Positions 3,001-17,384 of a DNA stretch of 38,514 nucleotides are shown here, piece by piece (positions within the stretch are counted from its first letter, which is position 1; each line of letters begins with the position of its first letter). The translations under genes and the position numbers were made by a program. The notes below the pieces were generated by a model, which did not search any database, was not told the DNA's origin, and saw only the letters and a list, made by a program, of their open reading frames with translations. Source of the stretch: a virus; the IMG/VR virus record IMGVR_UViG_3300042564_007291, positions 1 to 38,514 of that record. One strand, given 5' to 3'.

Positions 3001-3258
3001 TTATGCCACACTCCCCGCAGGCATCCAGGGCTTTCTGTTGCGCAACAAAGAGAAAACTGTTGCACCCTTCTGCAATTTCCACACTACCAATGCCGGGCGC
3101 GCAAAGCCGCCCGCATACGGTTCGGGCCGGGAAGGACCCGCGAGGGGCATGGGCAAGCGGCGTGCCAACGTGATGCGCAAGCGCCGTGCCAATTTTGAAG
3201 AAGGATTTTCTGAGGAGTTCGAAGGCGCTTGGCGCACTTCTGAGCGATAGTTATTCAT
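3001..3258 (-). CDS. Doubtful 85-aa reading frame upstream of terminase; may instead be the cos region
   Basis: The reading frame starts with an ATGA overlap on the upstream gene (3255-3258) and ends with TAA immediately before the terminase ATG, which argues for a coupled gene. Against this, the codon third positions are much less GC-rich than in the neighbours, the product (rich in R, P and S) resembles nothing I know, and a similar-length frame exists on the other strand. The stretch contains a 12-bp palindrome and two 16-bp direct repeats in the place where lambda carries cos. I cannot decide between the two readings. Confidence 0.35.
   Translation of the reverse strand: MNNYRSEVRQAPSNSSENPSSKLARRLRITLARRLPMPLAGPSRPEPYAGGFARPALVVWKLQKGATVFSLLRNRKPWMPAGSVA
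3036..3047. repeat. Perfect 12-bp palindrome TGTTGCGCAACA
   Basis: A perfect inverted repeat, TGTTGCGCAACA, lies about 36 bp upstream of the small-terminase ATG. It could be a symmetric protein-binding or terminase cutting site. Only the symmetry is seen; the function is inference. Confidence 0.6.
3153..3192. repeat. Two 16-bp direct repeats, 24 bp apart, upstream of the terminase genes
   Basis: GCAAGCGGCGTGCCAA (3153-3168) and GCAAGCGCCGTGCCAA (3177-3192) match at 15 of 16 bases. In lambda, repeated R sites bound by Nu1 lie close upstream of the small-terminase gene, so these are candidate terminase-binding sites. They could also be a coding repeat, because the 24-bp period is eight codons. 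Confidence 0.5.
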
Positions 3259-4055
3259 TGGACTGAAAGTGGGTGAGAAGTCAAGCGGGAATTTTCATCG
3301 CCAACCCAGCCAGCCTTGAGCGCATACCAGCCAAGGCTATGCCTCAGCCGCGCCAAGGCGTTCCGATGATCAATCCCAAGCGCATCAGCCACTTGTTTCG
3401 TGCCACGCCCCCGCACCACCACCAGGCGCGTCAGTTCTTCCAGCGTTTCCACCGATGGCCTGGGCAGCCGCCGTGCCGGGTAGCGCCTCGCCCATGCTTT
3501 CCAGGGGGCGAAGCGCTCACGCTCCGCTTCTTCAATCCCCACCATCTGCCCCGTGCCATCGCCACCCGAGGCCAGCCGTTCGCTGAACTGGCTGCGCACC
3601 ATCGGCAGCCGCCCGCCATCCACGAATTCCACGATCAGCCGGATTTCCTGCCCCGCCCGATGCTCCGCCGGCGTGATCTTGCCCGCATCCCTGAGCCCCG
3701 CCAGCTTATCCGCGCGCATAACGCGCTGCCGATCCACCCGCCGCGCCAGCCCCTCCGCTGCCCGTACAGCGGATTCAGGGTCATATTCCACCGGCACCCT
3801 GAAAAGTGGCGCCGCATGGCACTGAGCCGCCACGGAGCGGGCTTGCTCGGCCATCGCACGCGCATGGGCCACTCCAATCGCGTGCCGAGCCATACCGTCG
3901 CCGGTAACCCATGACCCGCCCGGTTGGACCACGCCAACCCCCAGGGTCAGCCCCTTCACACCACCTTCACACCCACCTTCACACCTTTCTTTATTGATTT
4001 GAATAGAGGTGTGAAGGTGTGAAGGGTGTGAAGGTGAATGTACACGCGCGACCAT
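3255..4055 (-). CDS. Putative DNA-binding protein, possible replication initiator
   Basis: 266 residues, not recognised. The ATG at 4055 has a strong Shine-Dalgarno (AGGAGA, 5-nt spacer). The first ~37 residues (HPSHLHT..., CEGGCEGGVKG) are encoded by the TTCACACC/GGTGTGAA repeats, so part of a repeat array lies within this gene. A second ATG at 3893 would give a 213-residue protein without them but has no good ribosome site. The C-terminus (about 222-245, TKQVADALGIDHRNALARL) looks like a helix-turn-helix. It follows the helicase gene, and lambda O likewise carries its origin inside its own gene, so an initiator role is plausible but inferred. Confidence 0.7.
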   Translation of the reverse strand: MVARVHSPSHPSHLHTSIQINKERCEGGCEGGVKGLTLGVGVVQPGGSWVTGDGMARHAIGVAHARAMAEQARSVAAQCHAAPLFRVPVEYDPESAVRAAEGLARRVDRQRVMRADKLAGLRDAGKITPAEHRAGQEIRLIVEFVDGGRLPMVRSQFSERLASGGDGTGQMVGIEEAERERFAPWKAWARRYPARRLPRPSVETLEELTRLVVVRGRGTKQVADALGIDHRNALARLRHSLGWYALKAGWVGDENSRLTSHPLSVQ

Positions 4056-4179
4056 GATCTTCTCCTATAAGGTTTCGCCCCACGCGCACGTGGGGAAATC
4101 TGCTTCACACCCTTCACACCTTCACACCCTGAGTATTTTCAACGAACAAAGGTGTGAAGGCGGGTGTGAAAGGTGTGAG
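3955..4179. repeat. Twelve-copy TTCACACC/GGTGTGAA array in two mirror-symmetric modules (candidate origin or RNA switch)
   Basis: TTCACACC occurs at 3955, 3966, 3978, 4104, 4113 and 4121. Its complement GGTGTGAA occurs at 4008, 4016, 4025, 4151 and 4163, with a last copy at 4172 matching 7 of 8 bases. The pattern is three forward, three reverse, three forward, three reverse. Each module has a 22-bp AT-rich centre (3986-4007 and 4129-4150). The 25 bp at 4008-4032 are the exact reverse complement of 4104-4128. Copy spacing is 8-12 bp, about one helical turn. Iterons flanking AT-rich DNA beside a helicase gene suggest an origin; alternative long hairpins in the leftward transcript are equally possible. 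Confidence 0.9.
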
Positions 4180-4183
4180 CGTT

Positions 4184-4202
4184 CCCCCTTTTATACAGGG
4201 GG
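4184..4202. repeat. Small hairpin over the helicase stop codon
   Basis: CCCCC (4184-4188) and GGGGG (4198-4202) flank a 9-nt AT-rich loop that includes the TAA stop of the ATPase gene. There is no T-run after it on the minus strand, so it is not a typical intrinsic terminator. Confidence 0.4.
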
Positions 4203-6077
4203 CGCGGGGGGCCGCGCCGGTTCTTCAGCATCCAAAACCGCAAGGGGCACGCAGAATGCGCGGCCCGAATAGGCCTTGCCCATGCGCAGATTCCCGATAC
4301 TTCGCTTGGCATGCGGCATTTGTTCCATCGCGCGCCACCATGCCTCACCGGCAAATTCGGTGCCGTGGAACAGCCGCCGCAATTCCTGATGCTGGCGCGC
4401 GAACCACACCACCTTCAGCGGCACACCGCCCAGCGGCTTAGCCTCATCATCATTCCAGGGATCACGCAGCAGCTTCACCGCATCATCGGCGGATAATTCT
4501 TCAGGCTTCAGGCCGTAGCGCCGCAATTCGCCCGCCGGATCACCAGCCGCTTCACCCTCAAAGCATTCCCGCACCAAATCGCCCAAGGCGACCTTGGCGT
4601 TGCCCGCCGCGCGCTGGATGCTGGTTGAAGACAACATCACCCACACCCGCCTGCCTGCGCTGTCTTCTCGCTGCGCTACTGCCCCGCCGATGAAGCCCTG
4701 AGCCTCAGCAACCAAGGCAGCCGCTTCAGCATCCGTGGCCACGGCATCGCTTGCCAGCAGCCACCAGCCGGCCAGCAGCGCCCCCACCTGATCCGCTTCC
4801 CGCGCTGTCGCGCCCGCCGCCACCATGGCCGCGCGCATGGCCCGCAGATTGCCATCCCATCGCCCGAACCCCTCAATCACGCGCCCAAGCATCGCCGCAC
4901 CAAGCGCATGCGCCTTGGCCTGAATCGCATCAATCGCGTCCTTATTGTCGCGCCCCGCCGGCATGAGCGTAAGTTCAGTGAAGCGCCCCATATGTTCAGG
5001 CTTCAGCACCGGCGGATGGATTGCGGCGTAGCAAACCGCACCCAGCACGCTGAAGGACCGCCCTCGCCCATCAGGCGTGCCGCGCAACCCGCGCGACCCC
5101 TCACCGCCGCTCGCGGGCAACATCATGTCAAACAGTGCCGCGGCGCCTGAGCGATCCCCCTGGGCCGCTTCATCCACAATGATCGGGCCAGGCCTATCAG
5201 TGACCCGCGATTCAAGCCCTGATTTTGTGGTGTCATTGGAATAGGCATGCACCGGCAAAAGCCCCTGCAGCACGCGAATCAGGCTTGTTTTGCCAGTGCC
5301 CGTGCCGCCCAACATCACGAGGTTAGGGCGCCAACGCACGGCAGCGCCAAGGGAAGCAACCGCGCACCACCCAAGCGCCAGCATGGCTGCTGCAGGCCCA
5401 TCCCGGAACACCCAAAGATCGGCAATTTCACGCCGCAAATCATCAATTTCGGCTGGCGCGCATGCCTTGGCGGGCTGGCGCCGCACGGATGGTTCCAGCA
5501 CATAAACATGCCGCTCCGTAGCCCCTTCCACTTCCACATTCAGCACAATACCGGCACGTTCAGCCCGGCCATCCGCAAAAACCAGGCGCCCGCCCAAGTG
5601 CAGCAGCGGCTGGCCCTTTTCATCCGCCCATATGCCAGTGCGGCGCGGCGGCGAAATGATGGGATCATACGGCCCCAACAGAAAACAGGCCCGCATAATG
5701 GCCTTGCCGACCTTATCCCAATCCTTGACTTTCAACGCACCATAGTCATCCATGCTGCCAAAATGCTGCGCCAGCCAGGTTTCATCCGCGCCGAACAAAT
5801 CCAGCAGCGCTGACTTCTGCATCATTTCCCGCGCCGGCAAGCCGCGAAAATTCCCGCCCGCATCCACAAGATAGTAAAACCCCGGCGCCACCCCGATTGG
5901 CACAATGCCGCTACCCCCGAAATCCTGAGCATCAGCAGGCGCCGGCAGCCTTACCGGCCCATCATCCGCCACGCGCTTCTTCTTGGCCTTCTTCCCGCTG
6001 GCGTCTGCCTGCTGCTGCGCATCGGCCATGGCGGCATTGAAGGGATCAATCGGTTCAGCGGCTGAGCTCTGCGACAC
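4191..6077 (-). CDS. Helicase-like replication ATPase
   Basis: About 628 residues from a GTG at 6077. A frame-matched ATG at 6098 would add seven residues but has no ribosome site, whereas GGGAGGG lies 7 nt before the GTG. Walker A GGTGTGKT is at about 257-264 and a Walker B-like PIIVDE at about 298-303. The arrangement resembles the phage D5/DUF927-type superfamily 3 helicase proteins that unwind the origin. The N-terminal part has no primase motif I can recognise. The TTCACACC array directly follows it. The gene overlaps its upstream neighbour by about 23 nt. Confidence 0.8.
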   Translation of the reverse strand: MSQSSAAEPIDPFNAAMADAQQQADASGKKAKKKRVADDGPVRLPAPADAQDFGGSGIVPIGVAPGFYYLVDAGGNFRGLPAREMMQKSALLDLFGADETWLAQHFGSMDDYGALKVKDWDKVGKAIMRACFLLGPYDPIISPPRRTGIWADEKGQPLLHLGGRLVFADGRAERAGIVLNVEVEGATERHVYVLEPSVRRQPAKACAPAEIDDLRREIADLWVFRDGPAAAMLALGWCAVASLGAAVRWRPNLVMLGGTGTGKTSLIRVLQGLLPVHAYSNDTTKSGLESRVTDRPGPIIVDEAAQGDRSGAAALFDMMLPASGGEGSRGLRGTPDGRGRSFSVLGAVCYAAIHPPVLKPEHMGRFTELTLMPAGRDNKDAIDAIQAKAHALGAAMLGRVIEGFGRWDGNLRAMRAAMVAAGATAREADQVGALLAGWWLLASDAVATDAEAAALVAEAQGFIGGAVAQREDSAGRRVWVMLSSTSIQRAAGNAKVALGDLVRECFEGEAAGDPAGELRRYGLKPEELSADDAVKLLRDPWNDDEAKPLGGVPLKVVWFARQHQELRRLFHGTEFAGEAWWRAMEQMPHAKRSIGNLRMGKAYSGRAFCVPLAVLDAEEPARPPAPPV

Positions 6078-8644: not shown

Positions 8645-9275
8645 AAGCAGCAAACCTTCCACGCGCCGGCGGGCCTTGCCATGCGCGGTTCTTTGGCTTC
8701 TGCCGCACCTCATCTTCCACCGCCCCGCGCTTACTGAAGCAGCGCGCGTGATGCGCTGGGCAATACGGGCTATCCTGCCGCCCTTCTTCATTCCGCCGCG
8801 CCGGTGCATCGCAAAAGCGCGGTTCTTCCCCCAGCAGCCTTTCCTTGTCGCCCCACATCGGAAACTGACAGCCCCGCGCTGGAAAAAGCTGCGGCCGAGG
8901 CTTTGAAGCCCCAGCCGCAGAGTTTCCAGACAGGGAGGATGCCACATGCGCGGTAGCAGCCGCCGCGCGCGGCCCGGGCTGGGCAGATGCCTCAGCCAAG
9001 CTTTGGTGGGCGACGGGCGCCACCTGGAACCCCCCAACACCCGTCGCCCTAAGCCGTGCGTCTGTCGAGGTCACGCGCGGCTTATTCTTCACACCTTCAA
9101 GCGCCGCCGGCAGAGGCCGAGCATCCAACTTCAAGCGATGCACCTTGCCAACAACGGAACCCTTGGAAACGCCAAGCGCATCCGCGATTTCAGTGTAGCT
9201 ATCGCCGCGCGCATGCAATTCGCGCAGCCGATCAATCATCCCGGGCTCACCCCATGGGCCAGGATTGGCGCTCAT
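8637..9275 (-). CDS. GcrA-family transcriptional regulator
   Basis: 212 residues. The N-terminal helix-turn-helix (about 13-50, MIDRLRELHARGDSYTEIAD then GKVHRLKL) matches GcrA, the alphaproteobacterial regulator that binds sigma-70 and methylated promoters. The C-terminal half has the GcrA zinc-like signature: C136-QFP, F-C155-DAP, Y-C172-PAHH-ARC. The linker is long and Ala/Pro-rich. The ATG at 9275 overlaps the stop of the 50-aa gene as ATGA, which favours it over a GTG 12 nt upstream. The phage may use it to steer host transcription, possibly through DNA methylation. Confidence 0.85.
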   Translation of the reverse strand: MSANPGPWGEPGMIDRLRELHARGDSYTEIADALGVSKGSVVGKVHRLKLDARPLPAALEGVKNKPRVTSTDARLRATGVGGFQVAPVAHQSLAEASAQPGPRAAAATAHVASSLSGNSAAGASKPRPQLFPARGCQFPMWGDKERLLGEEPRFCDAPARRNEEGRQDSPYCPAHHARCFSKRGAVEDEVRQKPKNRAWQGPPARGRFAAYV

Positions 9276-13013: not shown

Positions 13014-13291
13014 TCAGCACAGACCTCACCGCCGCCATCACCGTGGCGTATGACGCGCTTTCCGCCGCCGAACACGCGCCAGACCGCATGGTAGCCCTGC
13101 TACACCTGCGCCGCGCATCAATGGCCATTCAGGCTTTGGAAGCCCATGTGGCCCGCGTTGCCGCAATGGAAGCATCCCCCATACCGCCGCACTGGCGCCA
13201 GCAGCCGGTCGCGCTGGCTGACATGCCGCCAAACGTGGTGCCACTCCGCCGCGCGCGGCACATCCCAATCCACCACGGGGGCGCCGCATGA
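13010..13291 (+). CDS. Hypothetical protein, 93 aa
   Basis: The ATG at 13010 overlaps the stop of the membrane-protein gene. The N-terminal two thirds are helical (MISTDLTAAITVAYDALSAA, later LLHLRRASMAIQALEAHVAR) and the end is Pro/Arg-rich. Coupled to the next gene by ATGA. No family recognised. Confidence 0.65.
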   Translation: MISTDLTAAITVAYDALSAAEHAPDRMVALLHLRRASMAIQALEAHVARVAAMEASPIPPHWRQQPVALADMPPNVVPLRRARHIPIHHGGAA

Positions 13292-14139
13292 CTCACCCCG
13301 GCAATGGCCGCGTTGTCTTCACGCCTGAACGCTGCGCGGCACTGAAGGAAGATTGGGAAGCGGGCAGGGACGCCAGCGCCATCATGGCGCGGCTGAACAC
13401 AATGCCCTGCGCTTACCCCGTCGCCAGCGCTCAAGCGGTGATAGACAAGGCGCGCGCGCTTGGGCTCAAACGGCCCGAAGGATGGGCGCGGGCAAAGCAA
13501 CAAACCGCCAAGCCACGGACCTGGACGAATGAACGCCGGGACCTGCTGCACAACCTGATCAACCTGATCCCGGATGATGATTTGCTGGAAAGGCTGAACA
13601 CCCTGCCCGGCCCGGCAGTCCGCAACCGGCGATCCATGCGGGACAAAGCTCAGGAACTTGGCTATTTGGCCGAACGCCCGCGCAAATCAGGCCCCAATCA
13701 AGGCACCTGGACAGAATTGCGGACATCCTTCCTGCGCGAAAACTACGGGCGCATCCCGCCGGCGGAATTACTTGTGGCGCTGCAATACATGCCCGGCCCG
13801 GCCATCGGCAGCATCAAAACCGTGCGCAGCGCCGCGGTCAGGCTGAGCATCAAAAGCGCCGGGCTGGTGCGCACCCCGCCCGCGCCACGCGCGCCCCGCG
13901 CAGCCAGGCCACGCCCGCCCCTAGAAGCGAACGCACCCGAGCCCGCGCCGCGCCCCCTCACGATTGAGGAACAGGAAGCGATTATTCTGGACAAACTCGC
14001 GCGCATCGAAGCGCAAGCGATGAAGCTGTTCAGCCGCCGCGAAAGCGCCGCGACAGTCAGCGGATCACTGAAAATCCCCCTGCGCGAAGCCTTCCGCCTG
14101 CAGGCGGTGCACCGCGAAAAGCAGAAGGAAGCGGCGTGA
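13288..14139 (+). CDS. Putative DNA-binding protein with three tandem SANT/GcrA-like repeats
   Basis: 283 residues. Three units of about 50-65 residues follow the same pattern: aromatic-T-x-E-R...L, a helical stretch, L-x-x-(L/M)P-x-(P/A), then a final basic helix. They start near residues 11 (FTPERCAALKEDW), 79 (WTNERRDLLHNLI) and 141 (WTELRTSFLRENY). Each resembles a SANT/Myb or GcrA N-terminal three-helix fold. A Pro/Ala/Arg linker (about 195-225) and a helical C-terminus with another possible HTH (about 255-275) follow. Probably binds DNA; the target is unknown. Confidence 0.75.
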   Translation: MTHPGNGRVVFTPERCAALKEDWEAGRDASAIMARLNTMPCAYPVASAQAVIDKARALGLKRPEGWARAKQQTAKPRTWTNERRDLLHNLINLIPDDDLLERLNTLPGPAVRNRRSMRDKAQELGYLAERPRKSGPNQGTWTELRTSFLRENYGRIPPAELLVALQYMPGPAIGSIKTVRSAAVRLSIKSAGLVRTPPAPRAPRAARPRPPLEANAPEPAPRPLTIEEQEAIILDKLARIEAQAMKLFSRRESAATVSGSLKIPLREAFRLQAVHREKQKEAA

Positions 14140-16174: not shown

Positions 16175-16512
16175 CTGACCGCCTCCTTACCCGCCCCCAG
16201 GTTGCCGACCGCTTCCAAATCACCGCCCGTCACTTGGCAGATTTGGAGAAAGAGCATTCAATCCCCATCCTCAAGGCTGGCCGAGCGGTGCGGTATGACA
16301 CCGCGGCCATCCTGCAACTGGAAGCCGCGATCAGATGCCCCTCACGCTCACCCGCAGCGGCGCCACTGGCGCTTGGCAAATCACCGGGACCGTTGCCGGG
16401 CAGCGGATCAGGCAATCTGCGCGGACGTCTGACCGCAGGCTCGCAGAGGAAGCAAGGGCCGAGCTCGAAGCCAGCCTCTATCGTGGTGCCGTTTACGGCG
16501 CGCGGGCGGTAG
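16171..16512 (+). CDS. Excisionase-like HTH protein overlapping the integrase
   Basis: 113 residues. Residues 5-55 (LLTRPQVADRFQITARHLAD, later IPILKAGRAVRYDTAAIL) form a MerR/excisionase-type helix-turn-helix. Such proteins direct the integrase towards excision. The rest (about 56-113) is low-complexity Ser/Pro/Arg sequence that overlaps the first 178 nt of the integrase gene in another frame, so it may be unselected overlap or a short conserved tail. Coupled upstream by ATGA. Confidence 0.75.
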   Translation: MTDRLLTRPQVADRFQITARHLADLEKEHSIPILKAGRAVRYDTAAILQLEAAIRCPSRSPAAAPLALGKSPGPLPGSGSGNLRGRLTAGSQRKQGPSSKPASIVVPFTARGR

Positions 16513-17384
16513 TCACCTGGGACCAGGCCGTCAATTCCTATCTGGACGCAGCGCCGCGTAGCGCCGCCGAAAATGCGCGGTTGCTGCGCCTACTGGATAG
16601 CCTGACCGGCAAGCGCCTTTCAGACATCACCCAGGCCACTATTGACCGCGTGATCCAGGCACGGTGCCGCCCGGGCGCCCAGCCCGCCACGAAGCTGCGG
16701 GAAGTGATCACGCCGATCCGCGCCGTGCTGGCCCATGCCGCGCGGCGCCAGTGGTGCGATATGCCGAACTTCGAAGCGCCCAAGGGCGCCAGCGGCGTCA
16801 AGCGCACCCGATGGCTTACCCCGGCCGAGGCCGATGCCCTCACCGCCGCCGCCGCGCCGCACCTGGCACCGCTGATCCTGTTCCTGCTTGGCACCGGCGC
16901 GCGCCTGAGCGAAGCGCTAGCGCTGCAATGGGCCGATCTGGACCTGACACATGGCCGCGCGCTGCTACGCGATACCAAACAAGGCAGGGACCGCGTAGCA
17001 AGCCTGCCGCCGCGCGCCGTGGCAGCCCTGGCCAACCTGCCGCACCGGGAAGGCCATGTGTTCCGCCCGCCGGCCAAGAAGCGCGGCAAGCAGCCGCTGG
17101 CCTATGCTGACACGGGCGGGCTGTATGGCGGGCAGATCGCCAGCGCCTGGCGCGGCGCCTGCAAGCGCGCATGCATAGCTGATGCCAGCCCTCACACCCT
17201 GCGGCACACATGGGCAAGCTGGCACTACGCAATGCACCGCAATCTGATGCGGTTGAAATCGGATGGGGATTGGTCAACCGTGAGCCAAACCGAGCGCTAC
17301 ACAAAGCTAGTGCCGGGCACGATGGCGCCGGAGATTCGGAAATTCTTGGGGCTAAGCAAGCCCAGCAAACGCGCTGCGGCCTGA
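16335..17384 (+). CDS. int: Tyrosine-recombinase integrase
   Basis: 349 residues. The N-terminal arm-binding region (1-55) is followed by a core-binding SAM-like domain (about 58-140) and the catalytic domain. Catalytic residues visible are R190 (GTGARLSEAL), K215 (DTKQGRDR), H287/R290 (SPHTLRHTW), W313 in the second His/Trp position and Y322 (TERYTKL). It catalyses integration at attP, which lies just downstream (17501-17548). The ATG lies inside the excisionase-like gene. It is the last gene of the rightward unit. Confidence 0.95.
   Translation: MPLTLTRSGATGAWQITGTVAGQRIRQSARTSDRRLAEEARAELEASLYRGAVYGARAVVTWDQAVNSYLDAAPRSAAENARLLRLLDSLTGKRLSDITQATIDRVIQARCRPGAQPATKLREVITPIRAVLAHAARRQWCDMPNFEAPKGASGVKRTRWLTPAEADALTAAAAPHLAPLILFLLGTGARLSEALALQWADLDLTHGRALLRDTKQGRDRVASLPPRAVAALANLPHREGHVFRPPAKKRGKQPLAYADTGGLYGGQIASAWRGACKRACIADASPHTLRHTWASWHYAMHRNLMRLKSDGDWSTVSQTERYTKLVPGTMAPEIRKFLGLSKPSKRAAA

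Follow-up and report, generated by a model that had tools for sequence, protein, structure and literature searches.

A 225-bp repeat array in a viral DNA of 38,514 nt (the window, that is, the whole stretch analyzed) is very probably a cis-acting replication element of a temperate phage, most likely its origin. Its partner in trans would be the 635-aa AAA+ helicase encoded by the adjacent upstream gene. This reading was based on four points: the array lies 3' of the helicase gene, its geometry is fixed, its repeat word changes in a concerted way, and the helicase C-terminus and the array are swapped as a cassette. A preliminary description of the window had proposed a replication origin with AT-rich unwinding elements, and comparison with relatives on these four points supported that proposal well. 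The best explanation of the host is a Roseomonas-like member of the Acetobacteraceae.

Repeat array and neighboring genes

Between 3955 and 4170, eleven exact copies of TTCACACC or its complement GGTGTGAA were found; a further copy, CTCACACC, matched at 7 of 8 positions and lay at 4172-4179. The whole window contained 13 exact copies against 0.72 expected, a number matched by no shuffle, and the only exact copies away from the array were isolated ones at 9088 and 11914. On the plus strand, the blocks were ordered three forward, three reverse, three forward, and three reverse. They were named T1-T4 along the gene direction, which is the minus strand (Table 1). The inner triplets T2 and T3 were tight (8-9 bp), and the outer triplets T1 and T4 were looser (9-12 bp). 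The first copy of the array began 12 bp past the ATPase stop. A recount confirmed the twelve-copy 3-3-3-3 array, the AT-rich spacers of exactly 22 bp in a genome of 38% AT, and the exact 25-bp inverted repeat formed by T2 and T3, all of which had been described before. The helical phasing described with them was rejected because the iteron spacings run from 8 to 12 bp. The T3-T4 spacer is most likely the unwinding element. The GC skew of the window was one-sided, without a peak, and gave no information on the position of an origin.

Table 1. Positions of the array blocks and adjacent features in the window
Feature	Position	Strand	Remarks
266-aa ORF	3255..4055	-	ATG at 4055; good Shine-Dalgarno AGGAG at 4062-4066
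T4, three GGTGTGAA	3955..3985	-	spacing 12 and 11
T3-T4 spacer, 22 bp	3986..4007	.	82% AT
T3, three TTCACACC	4008..4032	-	spacing 9 and 8; exact inverted repeat of T2
Middle region between modules, 71 bp	4033..4103	.	44% AT; short hairpin and start signals of next gene
Short perfect hairpin CCCCACG-TGCG-CGTGGGG	4078..4095	-	
T2, three GGTGTGAA	4104..4128	-	spacing 8 and 9
T1-T2 spacer, 22 bp	4129..4150	.	68% AT
T1, three iterons	4151..4179	-	reads TTCACACC, outermost CTCACACC; spacing 9 and 12
AAA+ helicase/initiator gene, 635 aa	4191..6098	-	P-loop GGTGTGKT; phrog_21086 and phrog_35358 (DNA primase) matches
C-terminal domain proposed to read the iterons, residues about 471-635	4194..4688	-	suggested for the window by relatives

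The genes around the array all lay on the minus strand, in the order methyltransferase, 176-aa protein, 635-aa ATPase, array, 266-aa ORF, 85-aa ORF, and two terminase subunits. An integrase was encoded at 16335-17384, which indicates a temperate phage. At 13288-14139, the GcrA family of cell-cycle regulators was matched weakly, below the Pfam cut-off, in this phage of likely alphaproteobacterial host.

The AlphaFold model of the ATPase had a mean pLDDT of 80, and its Foldseek matches in the PDB were vaccinia D5/mpox E5, the C-terminal region of NrS-1, ASFV PrimPol, and MCM. Because of this model fold and the PHROG matches, the ATPase was read as a putative replicative AAA+ helicase. Pfam gave nothing at threshold for it, and among 23 relatives only three matched DUF5906, at E 0.16. 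No primase domain was found in the ATPase by Pfam, and no primase was identified in the window. A comparison of the ATPase sequence with solved structures gave P-loop matches only.

One module of the array lies inside the 5' end of a gene, as had been noted: the first 32 codons of the 266-aa ORF, about 32 extra N-terminal residues in the subgroup of the window, cross T3 and T4. In relatives with another repeat word, the 266-aa-like gene begins past the array. The 266-aa protein had no homolog in a tblastn search against cultured phages, and its predicted fold was of low confidence (pLDDT 58). The protein had been suggested as an iteron binder, which is unlikely because it is retained beside two different repeat words whereas the ATPase differs.

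The overlap with the 5' end of this ORF could also reflect an operator array, at which another DNA-binding protein would control transcription of the 266-aa/terminase operon, and initiators often autoregulate via iterons. No sigma70-like promoter was found nearby, although this is a weak test. The array remains beside the helicase where the downstream genes differ, and AT-rich spacers and a mirror layout suit origins better. An operator array is therefore considered very unlikely.

Array and ATPase in related phages and plasmids

An array occupied the equivalent position in about 20 related phages and plasmids, with repeat words including TTCACACC, CTCACACC, TGTCCCGC, TGTAACC, CGTAGCC, TGTCTCA, CTGTAAC, TAGTGAA, GGTAACA, and others. 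A close ATPase (57-99% identity) was encoded in 8 viral contigs, 7 of them with a TTCACACC array and one (L068) with a CTCACACC array. A second group of relatives (group B) was found via homologs of the 266-aa protein. Its 266-aa-like gene aligned only from about residue 33 and lay beside an ATPase homolog of 29% identity, and the block order of its array was unchanged with the word TGTCCCGC. Helicase and word thus change together beside a retained downstream gene.

More relatives, in viral contigs and in Roseomonas, Gluconobacter, and Saccharibacter genomes, came from a wider profile scan. Scanning the GTDB genomes with the single ATPase protein confirmed none, and scanning them with an alignment gave five relatives. 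In all 16 further relatives whose downstream DNA was inspected, the array lay directly past the ATPase stop. Their words were TGTAACC, CTGTGAA, GCTGGGAA, CGTAGCC, TGTTACG, TGTCTCA, TGTGAAC, CTGTAAC, CTCACAA, and TAGTGAA, among others, with 6-11 exact copies per array; the best word in shuffles reached at most 3-4. Arrays were also present in MinM1, L068, L003, and group B, and the word in MinM1, a cultured Synechococcus phage, was CTCACA. No array was seen after the gene in some more distant homologs, namely MQ-4, PY223, ZRG1, Acjo_20, and Mwe-JY13.

Two arrays of unusual composition were observed. Synechococcus phage S-H1 had an irregular array after the ATPase gene with the interleaved words CCGTTCG and CCTAACG (L118, 4860-5200). 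In an Atlantibacter plasmid (L116, 5661-6050), the left half was built of GGTAACA and the right half of GGTAATA.

The geometry was compared over 22 arrays, T2 of L134 being read from the word survey of its downstream DNA. T2 and T3 were opposite and tight (8-9 bp) in 22/22. T4 was wide and oriented like T2 in 21/22, the exception being phi1422, and the T3-T4 gap was AT-richer than the T2-T3 gap in 21/22. T1 and T2 were opposite in about 10 arrays, in the same direction in about 11, and mixed in 1. Since the lineages are related, these counts are not independent trials. The four-block layout was kept in relatives, with the block geometry, including the tight/wide pattern, conserved and the orientation of T1 varying.

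This variation bears on the proposal that the transcribed triplets form alternative, mutually exclusive hairpins, an attenuator acting as an expression switch, with the helicase gene on one side and the genes toward the terminase on the other. The strand folded far more stably than shuffles (z -11), T2 and T3 are inverted throughout, and in relatives one base pair of the middle hairpin at 4078-4095 had changed in a compensatory way from C-G to T-A, giving CCTCACG-TGCG-CGTGAGG. However, stable folding is trivial because any set of inverted repeats folds in this way, and phi1422 also folds stably despite its different orientation pattern. T1 and T2 are unpairable in about ten lineages, where they run in the same direction, as are T3 and T4 in phi1422. 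Changes in the triplet arms of group A were one-sided or disruptive, and uncompensated. Pairing requires neither the direct-repeat identity inside triplets nor the concerted change of the word, and the next gene in group B begins beyond the array. Rfam gave only sub-threshold matches; nearly all were to microRNA models from eukaryotes and are artefacts that inverted repeats produce. The attenuator is not supported as a conserved function and is highly improbable. The hairpin at 4078-4095 may be of importance of its own. Alternating CG-rich stretches were seen at its position in several other lineages.

The terminase genes lie about 1 kb downstream of the array, which would suit a packaging site whose repeats are bound by the terminase small subunit. 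However, L011 has a complete TTCACACC array and an ATPase of 83% identity with a terminase large subunit of just 44%, and the small protelomerase plasmid paNv_UK14 has the array without an annotated terminase. The word tracks the ATPase, not the terminase, so a packaging site was ruled out, with almost no probability left to it.

Arrays of TTCACACC were also found in unrelated contigs (L019, 9696-9876; L055, 7421-7600), beside PrimPol-DUF3987 primase-helicase genes. The PrimPol-DUF3987 proteins had a weak C-terminal HTH match. A pattern with 12-bp spacing recurred in about a dozen contigs.

Exchange of helicase end and array in linear plasmids

Small linear plasmids of Arsenophonus nasoniae (5-9 annotated genes; 5-7 in those of 7.9-8.3 kb) carried a telomere resolvase (Pfam ResT-TelK) and an ATPase homolog followed directly by a 4-2-2-4 array. 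On the 8.3-kb plasmid, the ATPase homolog and the array were the sole replication candidate seen. Four words occurred: GGTAACA (paPv15), GCTAACA (paPv13), GGTTGTA (paNv_CAN17), and CATTACA (paNv_UK14 and kin). In each plasmid array, its own word occurred 8-13 times and the other three were absent. The plasmids paPv13 and paPv15 share one strain, and paNv_CAN17 and CAN18 share another.

The ATPases of paPv13 and paNv_CAN17 were 98.0% identical over residues 48-450 and 68.9% identical over 461-612. In the DNA, identity fell near nt 1200 of the gene, stayed low through the array, and was 95-98% just past it. The drop spans only the 3' end of the helicase gene and the array, and thus the C-terminus and the array act as a single cassette. 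This exchange is the strongest support for the suggestion that the C-terminal domain of the helicase reads the repeat word. For the protein of the window, the same function is suggested by homology and shared architecture.

Among the phages, the ratio of C-terminal identity to identity of the rest had a median of 0.80 where words differed and 0.93 where they were alike (Mann-Whitney p 0.015, with non-independent pairs). This phage-wide association of C-terminal divergence with word change is weak. L147 and L157, two group B members with one shared word, were 67.8% identical in the ATPase C-terminus and 97.5% in the rest, so the C-terminus can diverge without a change of word.

The small Arsenophonus plasmid families with a telomere resolvase (L112, L123, L173, and L174) look like phage-derived linear replicons, and some of them encoded a terminase small subunit or an acyl-homoserine-lactone synthase. 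Phaeobacter phage-plasmids were dropped as proof of plasmid replication because pGal_G40 also carries repABC (PMC4148982).

Comparison with known replicons and proposed mechanism

The nearest relatives of the proposed iteron origin, or essential part of an origin, for a self-loading helicase are, in the best reading, P4 crr and the rep-ori of SaPI/PICI. In P4, as in the window, iterons of about 8 bp lie directly 3' of a primase-helicase or primase-helicase-like gene. The P4 crr, which directly follows alpha, is a known region required in cis for replication. Its cluster order read along alpha is -,+,-,+, and in two places an AT-rich gap lies between clusters of opposite orientation, as in the window. 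P4 alpha binds its iterons by a C-terminal winged-helix domain. The two systems differ in several respects. The crr consists of two 120-bp direct repeats, whereas the array of the window is a mirror image, and the word is GGTGAAC in P4 and GGTGTGAA in the window. P4 alpha has primase and SF3/D5 helicase domains, whereas the ATPase of the window has no recognized primase domain; hhalign gave a probability of 10 between the two proteins, in the P-loop region alone.

P4 crr is separate from the start of synthesis (the ori lies about 4.5 kb off), so the array of the window might likewise be an accessory element. The helicase would bind it for loading, looping, or titration (copy control, incompatibility), and synthesis would start elsewhere. 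Co-resident Arsenophonus plasmids differ in word, as incompatibility control would demand. However, the separate ori of P4 has further iterons of its own (type 1 repeats), whereas the window has one array and, beyond it, only the two single sites, with no second array. In SaPI/PICI, the iterons 3' of the gene serve as the origin themselves (PMC6092414, PMC7581432). An accessory role is thus considered unlikely, and the origin reading is preferred.

In SaPI/PICI, AT-rich DNA immediately 3' of rep lies between iteron sets of opposite orientation, the Rep C-terminus recognizes the iterons, and each element has its own Rep/iteron pair (PMC6092414; PMC7581432, which describes Ubeda 2007). In SaPI origins, two head-to-head hexamers were proposed to load (PMC9894130). 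The iterons of the window also lie immediately 3' of the initiator helicase gene, and the flanking arrangement occurs twice, T1/T2 and T3/T4 each enclosing an AT-rich 22-bp spacer. PICIs are satellites with two iteron sets, whereas the window is a full temperate phage with four sets in two modules and tight/wide spacing; unlike a satellite, which lacks a full phage gene set, it has genes for the two terminase subunits and an integrase along with other phage genes. PICI Reps are DUF927 or D5/Primase_Cterm proteins, whereas the ATPase of the window has no such Pfam match at threshold, although its fold is related to D5/NrS-1. To judge from sequence, the window works like the P4/SaPI/PICI replicons, yet neither its protein family nor its element type places it among them. 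Fillol-Salom 2018 stated that such an organization occurs in no other known bacterial replicon (PMC6092414). The phages and plasmids described here seem to depart from this PICI-only statement.

Other systems were less similar. In SCCmec, the D5-type helicase Cch2 binds direct repeats that directly follow its gene (PMC7581432); this system differs in having three iterons, no four-block mirror layout, and a primase partner based on an A-family polymerase. A lambda-type ori resembles the array in that its iterons share DNA with a coding sequence close to replication genes, and in its AT-rich DNA. The analogy with lambda ori drawn earlier is only a loose one: in lambda, the iterons are within the gene of the initiator O, which is no ATPase, whereas the array of the window follows the initiator gene and enters the next ORF in one subgroup only. 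RepA/TrfA/Pi iteron plasmids have direct repeats of 17-22 bp and a winged-helix Rep, whereas the window has 8-bp units in both orientations and an AAA+ ATPase.

The array, its geometry and position, the varied words, and the cassette exchange in plasmids are established by sequence. In the proposed mechanism of origin function, the C-terminal domain of the helicase would read the 8-bp word GGTGTGAA. Subunits would assemble on the triplets that flank each 22-bp AT-rich spacer in opposite orientation and would open the spacer, probably T3-T4 first. The helicase would then load itself as rings at the opened spacer, and the mirror-image halves would let two rings face in opposite directions, so that replication could proceed both ways. 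The parts of this mechanism that we infer are binding and melting, the loading of rings, and the direction.

No paper on these arrays was found in a literature search made mostly without subscription journals. The idea of such an origin is itself already known; its four-block, word-swapping form in temperate phages appears to be new. It is about as likely as not that these arrays represent a widespread class of phage origin not yet described, in which the four-block geometry is fixed, the word changes freely, and the C-terminus and array are inherited together as an exchangeable specificity cassette by which co-resident or superinfecting replicons would avoid each other. In that case, the word could be predictable from the C-terminal domain. 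If the origin reading is true, origins would be readable from sequence (ATPase stop, then four-block array) in linear phage-like plasmids, a cyanophage, and many temperate phages of the Acetobacteraceae. With at least a dozen natural pairs of protein and word built on a common scaffold, origin recognition by AAA+ helicases would be directly testable. The published claim that this origin organization is exclusive to PICIs would be weakened, and the arrays would offer an example from nature of replicons made compatible within one cell by a change of word.
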